Positions 57,842 through 63,733 of a stretch of DNA of 64,000 bases are shown here, one piece after another. Each line of letters begins with the position of its first letter. The first letter of the stretch is position 1. Made by a program: the position numbers and the translations under genes. The notes under the pieces are model-generated. The model worked only from the letters and a program-made list of their open reading frames with translations. It ran no database searches and had not been told where the DNA came from. The DNA comes from Streptomyces sp. NBC_00539. Lineage in GTDB: Bacteria; Actinomycetota; Actinomycetes; Streptomycetales; Streptomycetaceae. The stretch lies in NCBI RefSeq assembly GCF_036346105.1, contig NZ_CP107811.1, positions 1,674,001-1,738,000 of the forward strand, given 5' to 3'.

Positions 57842-58506
57842 GCGGGCGCCTCGGTGACCTCGCTGGGGCGGACGATGACGAATCCCTCGCCGCTCAGCTT
57901 GAGCTGTACGGCCTCCCCCGAACCGCCGCGGATCATCGACCCGATCGACTGGGAGCGGTGCAGCCCCGTCTCCAGCGCGGCGCTCCATCCGACCACCGCG
58001 TCGGTGTCCACGTAGACGGGCGCCTGCGCGGCGACCGGGATGATGATCGGGTTGCCGTCGCAGATCACCGCGAGCTTTCCGGTCCCGGTGAACAGGCTGT
58101 TGAAGAGGCCGCCGCCGGTCATGCCCGCGCCCTTGACCATCTTGATCTCGTAGGACAGCGACGGATCGAAACACAGGACGTTGCGCCCGTTGATGGTCAG
58201 GGCGTCACCGGGCTCGAACTCGACGATGAAGCAGTTCGCCGCCTGGTGGGCGAACCAGGCCTCGCCCTGGCCGCGCACCGACATCAGGGGCAGCCCCTCG
58301 CCGGTCACGGCCCGCTTGAGCATGCCGCCTATGCCCTGCCCCCTGCGCTCGAACTGGAGGTTGCCGCGGAAGGCGACCATCGAGCCCTGACGGGCCAGCA
58401 CCTCCCCGTTGACGGTGTACTTGACGGACTTGGCGTTCTGGAGGGTCATGCCGGCGACGGCGGAGGGCTGGACCAGGTTCTCGGACGCGAAAAGATCACT
58501 CTTCAT
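57832..58506 (-). CDS. AIM24/TerD-like DUF124 family protein
   Basis: 224 residues of the AIM24 (DUF124) family, with QSIGSMIRGGSGEAVQLKLS, FDPSLSYEIKMVKGAGMTGG and CFIVEFEPGDALTINGRNV. The fold is double-stranded beta-helix-like. Yeast Aim24 is linked to mitochondrial membrane organisation, but no bacterial role is established. No signal peptide is seen. The ATG at 58504-58506 starts the usual sequence MKSDLFASENL. It is convergent with the deacetylase gene and its 3' end is tandemly duplicated past the stop. PTH2 is divergent, with 71 bases between starts. Confidence 0.85.
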   Translation of the reverse strand: MKSDLFASENLVQPSAVAGMTLQNAKSVKYTVNGEVLARQGSMVAFRGNLQFERRGQGIGGMLKRAVTGEGLPLMSVRGQGEAWFAHQAANCFIVEFEPGDALTINGRNVLCFDPSLSYEIKMVKGAGMTGGGLFNSLFTGTGKLAVICDGNPIIIPVAAQAPVYVDTDAVVGWSAALETGLHRSQSIGSMIRGGSGEAVQLKLSGEGFVIVRPSEVTEAPAAH

Positions 58507-58577
58507 GGGCCCGATCCTCGCCCGCAGGCAACCCCTGCGGCATCCTCCTCAAGTCGGAGGCTGGCAGACTGGGCCGG

Positions 58578-59351
58578 ATGAGCACCGAGGACACCCAGGC
58601 CCGCCAGGACACCGCCCCCGCACCGGCCGTAGGGGCCGACAGTCCGTTCCGCAAGGAGCACGCGGCCCGCGACGAGGCCCCCCAGTTCGTGCTGCCGCTG
58701 GTCGTGCGGATCGAGAAGACCGCGCCGCCGGCCAGGACCGACGCGTTGGAGACGGCGGCCCGCGCGGTGCTGGTGCTGCTGACGGACGAACGCGCGCACG
58801 GCGAGGGCGAGTGGGCCGACGCCGTCCGGGACTGGCAGGACGCCCGGATCCGCAAGGTGGTCCGGCGCGCCCGCGGGGCGGAGTGGCGCAAGGCCGAGAC
58901 CCTGCCGGGGGTCACGGTCCGCGGCGCGGGCCCGTCGGGGGCCGGGTGCGAGGTGCGGGTCTTCCCGCCGGTGCCCCTCGACGGCTGGCCCAAGGAACTG
59001 GCCAAGCTCCAGGTGTCGGGCACCGACCTCGACGACCCGGAGCCGGTCCCCGCGGCGGCGCCCGGCGTACCCGTGCTGTGGCTCAACCCGGACCTGGACA
59101 TGTCGGCCGGCAAGGCGATGGCCCAGGCCGGGCACGCGGCGCAGCTGGCGTGGTGGGAGCTGACCCCCGCGGAGCGCGGCGCGTGGCGGGACTCCGGTTT
59201 CCGGCTGGCCGTACGGACGGCTCCGCGCGAGCGGTGGGCGCAGTTGAGCGGGAGCGGCCTGCCGGTGGTGCGGGACGCGGGGTTCACGGAGATCGCCCCG
59301 GGCTCCTGCACGGTCGTCTCGGACCATCCGGCGCTGCGGGCGCGGCTGTAG
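58578..59351 (+). CDS. Peptidyl-tRNA hydrolase, PTH2 family
   Basis: 257 residues. The PTH2 signature is MSAGKAMAQAGHAAQLAWWE, and the fold continues with VRDAGFTEIAPGSCTVVSD. PTH2 enzymes, mostly archaeal and eukaryotic, release peptides from peptidyl-tRNA; many actinomycetes also carry one. The N-terminal 110 residues are extra and variable. A 123-base gap follows before the DUF692 gene, with a possible GC-rich hairpin just after the stop (59353-59374). Whether it substitutes for PTH1 is not known. Confidence 0.82.
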   Translation: MSTEDTQARQDTAPAPAVGADSPFRKEHAARDEAPQFVLPLVVRIEKTAPPARTDALETAARAVLVLLTDERAHGEGEWADAVRDWQDARIRKVVRRARGAEWRKAETLPGVTVRGAGPSGAGCEVRVFPPVPLDGWPKELAKLQVSGTDLDDPEPVPAAAPGVPVLWLNPDLDMSAGKAMAQAGHAAQLAWWELTPAERGAWRDSGFRLAVRTAPRERWAQLSGSGLPVVRDAGFTEIAPGSCTVVSDHPALRARL

Positions 59352-59474
59352 GTCCGCCGGGGGCGGCCGCGGCGGAACCTCAAATGTTGCTCTGAACGTC
59401 CCCTCCGGCGGGTTGGCGGGACCTCGCCGGGGCCATCACACCGGCGTACGGACCGAGGGAAGGGGGGCGGGGAC

Positions 59475-60878
59475 ATGAAGCCCGTGGCACACCTGGGGGT
59501 GGGCATCGGCTGGCGGCCTGAGATCGCGGAAGCGGTGGAACGGCTGCCCGGCCTGGACTGGGTCGAGGTGGTGGCGGAGAACATCTGCCCCGGCCATCTG
59601 CCGGCCTCGCTGACGCGGCTGCTGGAGCGCGGCGTCCGCGTCGTCCCGCACGGGGTCTCCCTGGGCCTCGGCGGCGCCGACCGCCCGGACGCCGGGAAGC
59701 TGGCCGCGCTCGGGGAGCGGGCCGTGGCGCTGGGGGCGCCGCTGGTCACCGAGCACATCGCGTACGTACGCACCTCCTCGCCGGCGCTGGAGGCCGGGCA
59801 CCTGCTCCCGGTGCCGCGCACCCGGGAGGCGCTGGACGTGCTCTGCGAGAACGTCCGGATCGCGCAGGACGCGCTGCCCGTGCCGCTGGCGCTGGAGAAC
59901 ATCGCCGCGCTGTTCCCGTGGCCCGGGGACGAGCTGACGGAGGCGCGGTTCCTGACCGAGCTGGTGGAGCGGACGGGGGTGCGGCTGCTCATCGACGTGG
60001 CGAACCTGCACACCAACCGGGTGAACCGGGGCGAGGACCCGGCGGCGGTGCTCGACGCGATCCCGCTGGAGGCGCTGGCGTACGTGCACGTCGCCGGGGG
60101 TGTGGAGCGCGGCGGCGTGTGGCACGACACGCACGCGCACCCCGTGCCGGAGGTGGTGCTGGACGTACTGGCGCAGCTGCGGGCACGGGTGGAGCCGGCC
60201 GGGGTCCTGCTGGAGCGGGACGACGACTTCCCGCCGGAGGGTGAGCTGGCCGGGGAACTCCGGGCCATCCGCGACGTGTTGACGGGCCGCCCGGTCCCAC
60301 CCGCCCCGGCCCTGCGCGCTGCGTCTGCCGGGGGCTCGGCCTCCGCGGGCCGGCCCCGCGCACGTGCGGCTTCCGATGCCTCGGGCCCCGCCCCGGACGC
60401 GGTCGCGGTCCCGCAGACGGACGCGGACGCCGTGGAGGACCGGGCCGGCGTCCCGGAGACCGTGACGGACTCCCTCCGGACCCGGCTCGGGCTCCAGCAG
60501 GCCGCCCTGCTGTCCGCGCTCGTCGCGGGAACCCCCGTACCGGAGGGCTTCGACCGGCAGCGGATCCGGGTCCAGGCGCGGGCGCTGGCCGCCAAGCGCG
60601 CTTCGGTGGTGGCGAAGGTGGCGCCGGAGCTGCCCGCGCTCCTGGGCGGCGGCGACGCGTACCGCACCGCGTTCCTCGGCTACGCCCGGGGCCGCCCGAT
60701 GAGGGCCGGGTACCGCCGGGACGCCCTGGACTTCGCCGAGCACCTGCTGATCCGCGGCCTGCCGGCCGACCCGGCGGCCCGCCGCCGTCTCACCGCCTGG
60801 TGGCGGGAGCGGGCCGGGGCGCGGCCGCCGCGCCGGGTCGTGCGGTGGGCGCGTGCGCTCGTGGCGAGGGCGGCGTGA
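59475..60878 (+). CDS. DUF692 (MNIO) iron enzyme fused to a partner-like C-terminal domain
   Basis: 467 residues. Residues 1-270 are a TIM-barrel DUF692/MNIO enzyme. The candidate metal ligands and active residues are His59, Glu93 and His94 (TEHIAYVRT), Glu141, Asp174 and His179 ([10 protein letters not shown]), His205, and His217, His220 and His222 ([14 protein letters not shown]), with Glu247. Family members modify cysteines in peptide substrates (MbnB, TglH, BufB). After a Pro/Ala/Asp-rich linker (271-330), residues 335-425 resemble the DUF2063/BufC/HvfC partner domain ([20 protein letters not shown]), which is normally separate. Its stop overlaps the GTG of the TIGR04222 gene, so the pair is translated together. 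A RiPP-like reaction is inferred. Confidence 0.85.
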
Positions 60879-61945
60879 ACGCGCTCGCCGTGGCGGTCTG
60901 GCTCGCCGTGGCGGTCTCCAGCGTGCTGCTCCTGCTCGGCGGGCGCGGGCGGCGCTCCTCGGCGTCCGGCGCGGCGGCGTACCTGCACGACCTGTCGGAG
61001 GCCGCGTTCCTGGTGGGCGGGCCCGGGGCGGTCGTGGACAGCGCGCTCGTGTCCCTCCTCTGCGATGGCCGGCTGGTGGTCGGCGGCCCCGGCATCGTCC
61101 ACGCCCGGCCCGGGGTGCGGGCCGCCGACGTCGCCGAGCGCGCCGTGCTCCAGGCCCTGCTGCGGGCCCCGTCGGGGTGGCTGTACCAGGTGCGGTACGC
61201 GGCCATGGTCGACCCGGCCGTGCAGGAGACCGGGGACGCCCTGGCCGACCGCGGGCTGATCACCGTGCCCGGATCCGGGCGCGGGTGGCGCCGCTGGGGG
61301 CTGGCCCAGGCGGTGGTGTGCGCGGTGCTGGTGCCGGTGTCCCTGGTGCTCACCTTCGTGGCGTGGGCGCCGGAGCGGGGGTTCCAGGTGCCGTTCGTCT
61401 TCGAGGTGTTGCCCGCGCTGCTGATCGGGATCGCGTGCGGGGTCACCGGCTCGCGCCGGGCCCGTCGGCGGATCACGCCGGCGGGGCGGGAGGCGCTGGG
61501 CGCGATGCGGGCCCGGTACGCGGGCGACCGGACCCCGCGCGTGCAGACGGCCCTGTTCGGGCTGCGCGGTCTGCGGGACCCGTACCTGCGGCAGCAGTTG
61601 GTGCCGGCCGCCCGCGGCACCCGCCTGGCCGCTGCGCAGTCCGGTCCGCGGCGGGCCGGCGACTCCGGCTCGTCCGATGCGGCCGTCCCGTTCGGGCCGC
61701 TGGTGTGGTGTGCGGCGGCCGACGGCGGGGGCTCGGGCTCCTCCTGCGCGGGCGCCGGTTCCGGCTGCGGCTCCTCCGGTTCCAGCTGTTCCGCCTCCGC
61801 CTGTTCCACCGGCTCGGGGTGCTCGTCCGGTTCCGGTTGCTCCGGCTCGTCGGGCTCCGGCTGCTCGTCCTCCTCGGGATCCGGCTGCTCCTCGGCCTCC
61901 TCCTGCTCGTCCTCCTCCGGCTCCAGCTGTTCCAGCAGCTCCTGA
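60875..61945 (+). CDS. TIGR04222 membrane protein with Cys-rich Ser/Gly tail (candidate MNIO substrate)
   Basis: 356 residues. Helices near 4-22, 141-165 and 172-191 span the membrane. The domain between ([34 protein letters not shown]) matches TIGR04222. Residues 277-356 are almost only Ser, Gly, Ala and Cys, with Cys at 279, 291, 298, 305, 310, 316, 322, 330, 338, 344 and 352. A GSGC(S/C)-like unit recurs, for example [14 protein letters not shown]. Basic residues after the third helix place the tail on the cytoplasmic side, where the MNIO enzyme could reach it. The GTG overlaps the previous stop (GTGA). I infer a modified cysteine tail; this is untested. Confidence 0.82.
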
Positions 61946-62068
61946 CCGCCCGTCGGCCCGGCGCGGTACGACAAAAGGGCGGAGCGGGGCGACACCCGGC
62001 GCGGGGTGCTGTACAGCGACGCCCGCGCGGCATCTGATCGGATCAGCCGATGAGATGAGAGGGCCGCC

Positions 62069-63733
62069 ATGCGCAGGAAGCTCGCACGCCGCGCGGTCGT
62101 CGCGGCGGTCCTCTCCCTGGCTCTGACCGGTCCCGTCCCCGCCCGGGCCGCCGCCGGGACCGACGGGGGCACGGGGGCCGCCGAGGCCGCCGAGGCTGCC
62201 GAGGCTGCCGAGGCCGCCGGGGCCGAGGTCGTCGCCCGCAACCCGCCGCTGCTCGACTTCGGGCCCTGCCCCGACGCCGAGATGCTGCCCGACCCCGTCC
62301 GGTGCGCGGCCTTGCGCGTCCCGCTCGACTACGCCCGCCCCGACGGCCCGCACATCTCCCTCACCGTCAGCCGGGTTCCCGCCACCGGCCGCGGCGGAGC
62401 GGCCCGGCAGGGCGCCCTCGTCCACAACCCGGGCGGGCCCGGCGCCTCCGGGATGGCCTTCCCGCTCTACGGGACCCTGCCCTCCTGGCAGCGCGTCGCC
62501 GCCGCCTACGACCTCATCGGGTACGCCCCGCGCGGGGTCGGCCGCTCCGCCCCGCTCTCCTGCCGGGAGCCGGCCGCCCGCGCCGGGGCGCCCACCCAGG
62601 TCCCGGCCGACCCCTCACCCGCGTACAAGGGGCAACGGGCCGCCGCCGCCCGGGCCTACGCCCTCGGCTGCGCCCGGCGGGCCGGCGCCGCCCTGCCGTA
62701 CTACACGACCCTGAACAACGTCCGGGACCTGTACGTGCTCCGCGCCGCCCTCGGGGAACCGAAGCTGAACTTCCTGGGCGCCTCGTACGGCACCTACCTG
62801 GGGGCCGTCTACGCCACCCTCTACCCGGGCCACCTGCGCCGCATGGTCTTCGACTCGGCCGTCGACCCCGACCCGCGGCGCGTGTGGTACCGCAACAACC
62901 TCGACCAGGGACCCGGCTTCGAGCGCCGCTGGTACGACTTCCGCGCCTGGACCGCCCGCCACCACGCCGCGTACGGCCTCGGCGCCACGCCGGAAGCCGT
63001 GCTGGGTGCCTACGAGCGCGTCCGGGCCGCACTGGCCCGCACCCCCGCGGGCGGGGTCGTGGGGACGGGCGAACTGCACGCCGCCTTCCTCCAGACGGCC
63101 TACTACGACGACGTCTGGCCGGACCGGGCCCGGGCGCTGGCGGCCTACCTGCGCGGCGACCCGGGTCCGCTGACGGAACAGGCGGCACCGGACCCGGCGC
63201 GGGCCGCCGCCGTCGAGAACGCGACGGCCGTCTACACGGCGGTGCTGTGCAACGACGCCCCCTGGCCCGCCGACTGGGAGACCTGGGACCGGGACAACAC
63301 CGAGGTGGCGCGCCGGGCGCCCTTCGAGACCTGGGCCAACGCGTTCCTCAACCTGCCCTGCGCCTCCTGGCCGGTGCGCGAGCGGCAGCGCCCGGTGGAC
63401 GTGGCGGCCGGGCGGCCGGGGCTCCCCCGCACGCTGATCGTGGCGGCGGAGCGGGACGGGGCGACCCCCTACCCGGGCGCCCTGGAGCTGCAGCGGCGGC
63501 TGGCCCCGTCGGCCGCGCTGGTCACGGAGGAGGGAGCGGGCCAGCACGGGGTGGCCGGCGGTCACAACGACTGCGTCGACCGTCATGTGGAGCGGTACTT
63601 GCTGACGGGAGGCACCCCGAGGTGGCGTGCCTCGTGCGCGCCGCATCCGGAGCCCGCACCGGTGTCGCTGGACGAGCGGGCGGCGGGCACCCGGGGGAAT
63701 GCTCCCAGGGCGCTGCTGCCGCCGGTCGTCTGA
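62069..63733 (+). CDS. Secreted tripeptidyl aminopeptidase-like alpha/beta-hydrolase (SlpD/E type)
   Basis: 554 residues. A signal peptide (VVAAVLSLALTGPVPARAAA) precedes an Ala/Glu repeat (AAEAAEAAEAAEAAGAE, encoded by 9-bp repeats near 62175-62220). The mature enzyme is the S33/tripeptidyl-peptidase type: the nucleophile is in FLGASYGTYLGAVY, an acidic residue in VAAERDGATP and the His in GQHGVAGGHND. It likely trims N-terminal tripeptides outside the cell, as for the Streptomyces Slp proteases. The ATG at 62069 gives the signal peptide; 123 bases separate it from the TIGR04222 gene. Five or more Cys suggest disulfides. Confidence 0.85.
   Translation: MRRKLARRAVVAAVLSLALTGPVPARAAAGTDGGTGAAEAAEAAEAAEAAGAEVVARNPPLLDFGPCPDAEMLPDPVRCAALRVPLDYARPDGPHISLTVSRVPATGRGGAARQGALVHNPGGPGASGMAFPLYGTLPSWQRVAAAYDLIGYAPRGVGRSAPLSCREPAARAGAPTQVPADPSPAYKGQRAAAARAYALGCARRAGAALPYYTTLNNVRDLYVLRAALGEPKLNFLGASYGTYLGAVYATLYPGHLRRMVFDSAVDPDPRRVWYRNNLDQGPGFERRWYDFRAWTARHHAAYGLGATPEAVLGAYERVRAALARTPAGGVVGTGELHAAFLQTAYYDDVWPDRARALAAYLRGDPGPLTEQAAPDPARAAAVENATAVYTAVLCNDAPWPADWETWDRDNTEVARRAPFETWANAFLNLPCASWPVRERQRPVDVAAGRPGLPRTLIVAAERDGATPYPGALELQRRLAPSAALVTEEGAGQHGVAGGHNDCVDRHVERYLLTGGTPRWRASCAPHPEPAPVSLDERAAGTRGNAPRALLPPVV

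Follow-up and report, generated by a model that had tools for sequence, protein, structure and literature searches.

Streptomyces sp. NBC_00539 carries, within a 64,000-nucleotide stretch of its genome (assembly GCF_036346105.1, contig NZ_CP107811.1, positions 1,674,001 to 1,738,000; hereafter the window), a two-gene unit in which an enzyme of the MNIO family (DUF692) is fused to what is very probably its own partner protein and is followed by a TIGR04222 membrane protein ending in a cysteine-rich tail. Here we describe this unit and its relatives, and propose, with a probability of about 0.6 for the explanation as a whole, that it is a protein-modifying MNIO system acting on the TIGR04222 tail. 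Three of its traits appear to be new: the fusion itself, the membrane side on which the tail is predicted to lie, and a conserved sequence upstream that may control it and related genes. The parts that carry the proposal, all read from the open reading frames (ORFs) of the window, are as follows.

59475..60878, + strand: MNIO enzyme fused to a partner domain, 467 aa (ORF, PF05114, homology, model)
59496..60281, + strand: MNIO (DUF692, PF05114) catalytic TIM-barrel domain, residues 8-269
60282..60455, + strand: variable linker (model confidence, pLDDT, below 50 for residues 281-315)
60456..60872, + strand: helical C-terminal domain, model residues 328-466, probable partner (homology to a separate gene after MNIO in other actinomycetes; model; weak DUF2063 profile match)
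60875..61945, + strand: TIGR04222 membrane protein, 356 aa (ORF, TIGR04222 score, AlphaFold2 model; start overlaps the MNIO stop)
60881..61465, + strand: first transmembrane helix TM1 (3-25), soluble domain (40-134; GPP34/GOLPH3-like by profile), TM2 (136-164) and TM3 (174-197) of that protein (AlphaFold2 model, profile, charge analysis)
61706..61942, + strand: putatively modified Ser/Gly/Ala tail starting at W278-C279, rich in Cys (11 residues)

The main comparison sample consisted of 84 Streptomyces-type MNIO loci, 80 of them chosen through similarity to the fused protein, and 77 loci from outside Streptomyces; L213, L024 and L281 are contig-end cases. Genus and phylum were assigned through the closest loci that bear a name. 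Even draws were made of 396 genomes of the phylum, of 101 Streptomyces genomes and of 200 genomes of the family (64 Streptomyces and 136 others). The initial annotation had staked its proposal on the pairing of the two genes, and this pairing recurs elsewhere: a TIGR04222 gene lies 3' of the fused enzyme in 78/84 Streptomyces-type loci and TIGR04222 is present at 62/77 of the others. The order in Streptomyces is MNIO-partner then TIGR04222, and outside the genus TIGR04222, MNIO, partner. The adjacency of MNIO and TIGR04222 is thus more than chance. An MNIO gene was present in 19 of the 20 Streptomyces genomes listed in the phylum draw (all but G162), and the sole MNIO match of the host genome is the enzyme of the window. 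The phylum search for TIGR04222 scored at most seven candidates per genome, which makes its absences weak.

The enzyme and its probable partner domain

The coordinates and lengths of both genes were as first annotated, as was the overlap of the TGA stop of the enzyme with the GTG start of the TIGR04222 gene, which lies within CGGCGTGAACGC. The assignment of the enzyme to DUF692 also held: residues 8-269 of 467 match PF05114 with 261.4 bits against a gathering threshold of 25 (E 1e-77). This domain has the TIM-barrel fold as in MbnB/TglH, with conserved His/Asp/Glu columns, and the matches listed for the whole fused model by Foldseek and VIA were MNIO and other TIM-barrel structures, with a VIA span of residues 1-280. 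The nearest named NCBIfam enzyme families are the bufferin (BufB) and HvfB maturases, both scoring under their curated cut-offs (178.7 of 310 bits and 144.9 of 360 bits, respectively).

Many enzymes of the MNIO family act together with a partner protein, and the C-terminal domain, helical in the predicted model, is in all likelihood such a partner, of the PME-type 2-like kind, joined to the enzyme. An iterated hidden Markov model (HMM) seeded by residues 331-467 of the window's enzyme matched 84/84 Streptomyces loci of the main sample, always in the MNIO frame, and outside Streptomyces it matched a separate ORF directly after MNIO in 61/77 loci, which upholds the earlier description of an enzyme fused to its partner. 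One of the 61, L264, has a partner reading frame without a start codon after the MNIO stop and was classed as separate. In 50/61 loci the separate ORF begins with a 4-nt overlap of the MNIO stop, and 58 of the 60 ORFs having a start encode 105-195 aa; in length, the only property compared, they fit the published PME-type 2 model proteins of 115 and 158 residues from Saccharothrix and Micromonospora (PMC12452194).

The presence of this domain follows that of TIGR04222. It was found in 61/62 non-Streptomyces loci with TIGR04222 and in 2/15 without detected TIGR04222 (Fisher p 7e-13, L213 omitted), which marks it as a component of MNIO loci of the TIGR04222 type; the sole TIGR04222 locus without it, L213, stops at a contig edge just past MNIO. 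Itemized, the 77 loci comprise 59 with TIGR04222 and a separate C domain, two with TIGR04222 and a fused, truncated C domain, one with TIGR04222 and no C domain, two with the C domain and no detected TIGR04222, and 13 with neither. The gene after MNIO in ten of these 13 showed a DUF2063 signature in four cases (L202, L249, L250, L278).

The domain had been called DUF2063-like. Its role as a partner stands by homology to the separate gene, and its relation to DUF2063 is weak by sequence and has no Pfam support: a scan of residues 335-467 (133 residues) at E up to 1 returned no family, DUF2063 (PF09836) included. Profile alignment with hhalign against DUF2063 proteins gave a weak match (P 0.0035, 48 columns, in register, 7 sequences) whose score of 22.4 compares with a maximum of 19.6 among 40 column shuffles; with four sequences P was 0.01, and single-sequence alignments to two DUF2063 proteins lacked significance (P 0.26 and 0.2). 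A comparison of the C-domain profile with the sequences of the PDB returned no MNIO partner, the best matches being chance-like (E 0.097 and above).

Fused and split forms both occur. The best MNIO match was fused in each of the 19 Streptomyces genomes of the phylum draw; this classification covers the best match, and two of the genomes have a further, lower-scoring one. In the Streptomyces draw the C domain was found in 95/101 genomes, one copy each except in two genomes. Ten of the 95 had short open frames, and frame inspection, which covered these ten, showed nine to be separate ORFs in a frame other than that of MNIO and the tenth to be cut by a contig end; some of the other 85 are among the 19 fused, and two second matches with short frames lay outside the inspection. 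A view of the enzyme as always fused in Streptomyces is therefore wrong. Among MNIO loci of other genera of the family that bear the upstream element described below, 4/12 were fused and 8/12 separate. In a first tree, built on a sample mostly picked by likeness to the fused protein, all 30 fused rows form one clade (SH-aLRT branch support 95); on an enlarged quick tree the fused or split state needs at least five changes, three of them forced by the starred branches. These changes, together with the split forms in Streptomyces and sister genera, speak against one fusion event. By these sequences the partner is commonly fused and has been repeatedly split or joined. The linker between both HMM matches varies from 27 to 128 aa in the 84 Streptomyces-type loci, and such interchange across a variable linker is as expected of two proteins acting together in one chain or two. 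In the non-Streptomyces loci L223 and L242 the partner domain fused to MNIO is cut down to its initial ~45 residues.

The TIGR04222 protein and its tail

The second gene product matches TIGR04222 over residues 8-233 with 130.4 bits against a cut-off of 43. Its AlphaFold2 model contains long helices at 3-25, 136-164 and 174-197, in agreement with the three helices annotated earlier, and a tail modelled at low confidence. The tail holds the 11 Cys counted previously when C279 of the W-C motif is included.

A cysteine-rich tail is a property of the copy that adjoins the enzyme. At least 4 tail Cys (range 4-11) were counted in 74/75 enzyme-adjacent Streptomyces copies, the sole exception, L076, being cut by a contig end; L017 and L048, whose tails are likewise cut, were left out of these counts, from which L076 was not removed. 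Two or more TIGR04222 genes follow the enzyme in 39/84 Streptomyces loci, and of the paralogues in the following position 40/41 have tails without Cys and one has a single Cys. Copies away from MNIO had 0-2 tail Cys in 11/12 cases. These 12 ORFs came from 11 of 13 regions fetched, two regions giving none; the gene of G013 is not included, and L289, counted as away, may adjoin its MNIO across a contig gap. At a threshold of at least 3 tail Cys, adjacent copies differ from following copies with p 1e-30 and from away copies with p 5e-12. The second TIGR04222 copy of the host genome, outside the window, has 2 tail Cys. Beyond Streptomyces, all 62 loci with TIGR04222 have at least one copy with 2 or more tail Cys. 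The idea of a substrate-like tail is thus borne out in so far as the Cys-rich tail goes with the enzyme-adjacent copy (none of the 41 following paralogues has 4 or more Cys). A Cys-free TIGR04222 paralogue lies ~0.1 kb 3' of the Cys-tailed gene in L008, L016, L025, L028 and others; in the window there is none at this place.

From W-C onward the tails consist of 43% Ser, 36% Gly and 12.5% Cys. A survey of Cys spacing, proposed with the first description, found intervals of mostly 6-8 residues and the W-C motif in 75/75 adjacent copies; in the alignment W278 and C279 are invariant across 59 rows. Tail length and Ser/Gly order vary widely among species.

The positive-inside charge pattern places the tail in the cytoplasm in 71/71 assessable of 74 Streptomyces proteins, as had been suggested for the window's protein. 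Applied outside Streptomyces, the same count gave 50 proteins in agreement with the inside model and 6 in disagreement (56 kept of 62); the 3 Streptomyces and 6 other proteins omitted are those in which three helices were not called. The cytoplasmic prediction for the Streptomyces tail follows from the lack, in most of these proteins, of a fourth hydrophobic segment that is common elsewhere.

The soluble domain (residues 37-247) resembles a fold of the GPP34/GOLPH3 type into which a transmembrane hairpin is inserted; the evidence for this likeness is moderate before TM2, and the profile gave none after TM3. A literature search for GPP34 together with TIGR04222 found nothing on the subject beyond PMC12452194.

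Proposed function and relation to known systems

We propose that the enzyme, cytosolic and joined in one chain to its partner domain, would bind the TIGR04222 protein made from the overlapping gene. It would then oxidatively modify, in succession, the Cys residues of the flexible Ser/Gly/Cys tail of that protein, for which the conserved W-C motif may serve as a guide. That the tail Cys are the substrate of the enzyme is probable, judging from where such tails occur. By analogy with BufB/HvfB-type enzymes the product would most likely be 5-thiooxazoles or related Cys-derived ligands; related MNIOs make 5-thiooxazoles, which bind copper (PMC13097082). A thiooxazole-type product is possible, with the odds somewhat against it. 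Such ligands may bind copper or another soft metal and so form a membrane-tethered metal-binding brush, cytoplasm-facing in Streptomyces; metal buffering as the function, again by analogy, is a more tentative suggestion. Carried furthest, the proposal would give the Streptomycetaceae a dedicated, separately regulated system whose MNIO, carrying its own partner, turns the tail of a GPP34-like membrane protein into a polymer with multiple metal-binding sites at the inner membrane face, a tethered cytoplasmic chelator and not a secreted ribosomally synthesised and post-translationally modified peptide (RiPP); in this full form we regard it as speculative and rather unlikely.

Several observations weigh against modification of the tail. 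Four of the 82 uncut Streptomyces-type loci have a fused enzyme without an adjacent Cys-rich TIGR04222 protein (L067, L083, L279, L280), and in 7/12 sister-genus loci, fused or split, the fetched stretch held no Cys-rich TIGR04222 neighbour. Conversely, L291 is a TIGR04222 copy with 5 tail Cys away from MNIO. A fourth hydrophobic segment, predicted to place the tail outside, occurs in 49/62 non-Streptomyces relatives, so that a cytosolic enzyme would need to act there before export. No RiPP recognition element (RRE) was identified in this system, the literature searched contains no report of a modified TIGR04222 protein, and a gene for a possible peptidase 3' of the tail gene would fit a released product.

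The rival that best survives leaves the tail unmodified, as a plain thiolate buffer for metal or redox, with the MNIO modifying another residue or protein such as the PTH2-domain protein encoded upstream or the Cys-free paralogue. The MNIO loci without a Cys-rich neighbour speak for it, as do published figures by which over a quarter of TIGR04222 proteins are without C-proximal Cys and a third of TIGR04222 genomes without MNIO (PMC12452194); yet the confinement of tail Cys to the enzyme-adjacent copy, with any Cys in only 1/41 following paralogues and few in nearly all copies away, argues against it, and we hold it to be unlikely while giving it real weight.

A modified tail cleaved off its membrane anchor as a released signal-like or antibiotic peptide seems improbable. 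Most MNIO products are small peptides (PMC12452194), a bacteriocin-type cluster has been noted to contain a TIGR04222 protein (PMC5183585), and the TAP-like hydrolase, the possible peptidase next downstream, occurs in 36/65 Streptomyces loci with full flanks; but it was not found in the stretch fetched for the other 29 and occurs at only 1/77 non-Streptomyces loci, and AIM24 (54/65) and a polysaccharide deacetylase (55/65) are kept oftener, which may make its presence plain synteny. Moreover, there is no exporter among four neighbours scanned with Pfam, and presence in nearly all Streptomyces genomes listed suits a housekeeping role. Least of all do we expect the tail to be a functionless by-product of repeat slippage in high-GC DNA, paired with the enzyme merely by operon inheritance: its length and Ser/Gly order do vary widely, but the Cys number and spacing and the W-C motif are kept where following paralogues are Cys-free, and other families show the pairing too, in reversed gene order.

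That TIGR04222 proteins may be MNIO substrates has been published, as has the gene order PTH-like gene, MNIO, TIGR04222 (Antoine 2025, PMC12452194), so the system is better known than the initial annotation took it to be. The cluster named there 'Adjamnio-II - MNIO - TIGR04222' shares with ours the enzyme family, the Ser/Gly/Cys-tailed membrane family and the PTH-like upstream gene, and the gene order of the window equals cluster II of Table 2 in that paper, a match by order and not by sequence-cluster membership. The accounts differ in three respects. There, PME-type 2 partners are given for at least 10% of TIGR04222 clusters and many clusters seem to be without a partner, whereas in our main sample one is nearly always present as a short gene or a domain; the tail is described as periplasmic, whereas the Streptomyces form is predicted to be cytoplasmic; and the PTH-like protein is PF01195 with 233-256 aa, compared with PF01981 and 257 aa here. 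In the parts of the open PMC literature searched, supplements excepted, no MNIO-partner fusion in TIGR04222 clusters was found (PMC12452194, PMC12710340, PMC13174530, PMC12257519 and PMC13097082 included).

Bufferins and captophorins (BufB-BufC, HvfB, Fon) resemble the proposed system in combining an MNIO and a DUF2063-type partner acting on Cys, but their precursors bear Sec signal peptides and they use separate partners of PME-type 1 (PMC12452194), whereas here the candidate substrate is a multi-helix membrane protein, the partner a short DUF2063-like domain in which no RRE was recognised, and the enzyme below the BufB and HvfB cut-offs. TglHI and MbnBC (8hi7, 7dz9) have a separate partner chain and a peptide substrate, and the C-domain profile did not match their partners. 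MovX, the enzyme of a Vibrio methanobactin-like RiPP, is likewise an MNIO chain with an extra, possibly partner domain (PMC12452194); the extra domain here is, in comparison, helical and PME-type 2-like.

A partner present as a short overlapping gene or as an enzyme domain bears on the question, raised in PMC12452194, of TIGR04222 clusters without a visible partner. The fused form would allow reconstitution with an enzyme of one chain, and with it one could ask directly whether membrane proteins can be modified by an MNIO; its relatives include natural split and fused forms.

Upstream element and neighbouring genes

A conserved element precedes the enzyme gene, its core ending ~80 bp 5' of the enzyme start.

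59374..59400, + strand: conserved element GGAACCTCAAAT-N4-CTCTGAACGTC, 27 bp, with the 21-bp core AACCTCAAATNNNNCTCTGAA at 59376-59396; probable regulator site or special promoter, by conservation

The element was found in 83/84 Streptomyces-type MNIO loci (L032 being the one without) and in 0/77 others, allowing up to five substitutions. The host genome has a single match of the 27-mer at up to three mismatches, with 0 for the reversed control. In the family draw the core was present at up to one mismatch in 72/200 genomes (52/64 Streptomyces, 12/64 being without a match, and 20/136 others), in 1-2 copies, the reversed control again giving 0. Of second copies in Streptomyces, 22 of 23 were examined, and a TIGR04222 gene was recognised downstream of 8 and not of the other 14; of the places in other genera, 20 of 21 were examined, with 12 preceding MNIO, 6 preceding TIGR04222 directly and 2 neither. 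Second copies are found at L285, L288 and L340-L379, some of them ahead of solitary TIGR04222 genes. Its conservation suggests that the element is probably the site of a regulator, or else a special promoter of the operon, and a shared regulon of TIGR04222 genes is likely; such a regulon would not be complete, because only part of the second copies precede TIGR04222 genes. Both the conserved element and the presence of the enzyme in 19 of the 20 Streptomyces genomes listed suggest that the system has a general role in the physiology of this industrially central group.

The sequence is also compatible with GGAACC-N17-CGTC, an extracytoplasmic function (ECF) sigma factor pattern, but the inner bases of the element are conserved more strongly than its ends. 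A search of positions 58200-62200 against Rfam at E up to 1 found no RNA family, and a literature search with part of the element motif found nothing relevant.

The genes flanking the unit in the window are the following.

58578..59351, + strand: PTH2-domain protein, 257 aa (PF01981, E 3e-10), conserved upstream of the operon in Streptomyces
62069-63733, + strand: alpha/beta hydrolase with TAP-like domain, possible peptidase, next gene downstream (PF08386, PF00561)

The PTH2-domain gene lies before MNIO in 81/84 Streptomyces-type loci and in 0/77 others. AIM24, the polysaccharide deacetylase and the TAP-like hydrolase recur around the Streptomyces loci, so the operon stands in conserved surroundings.
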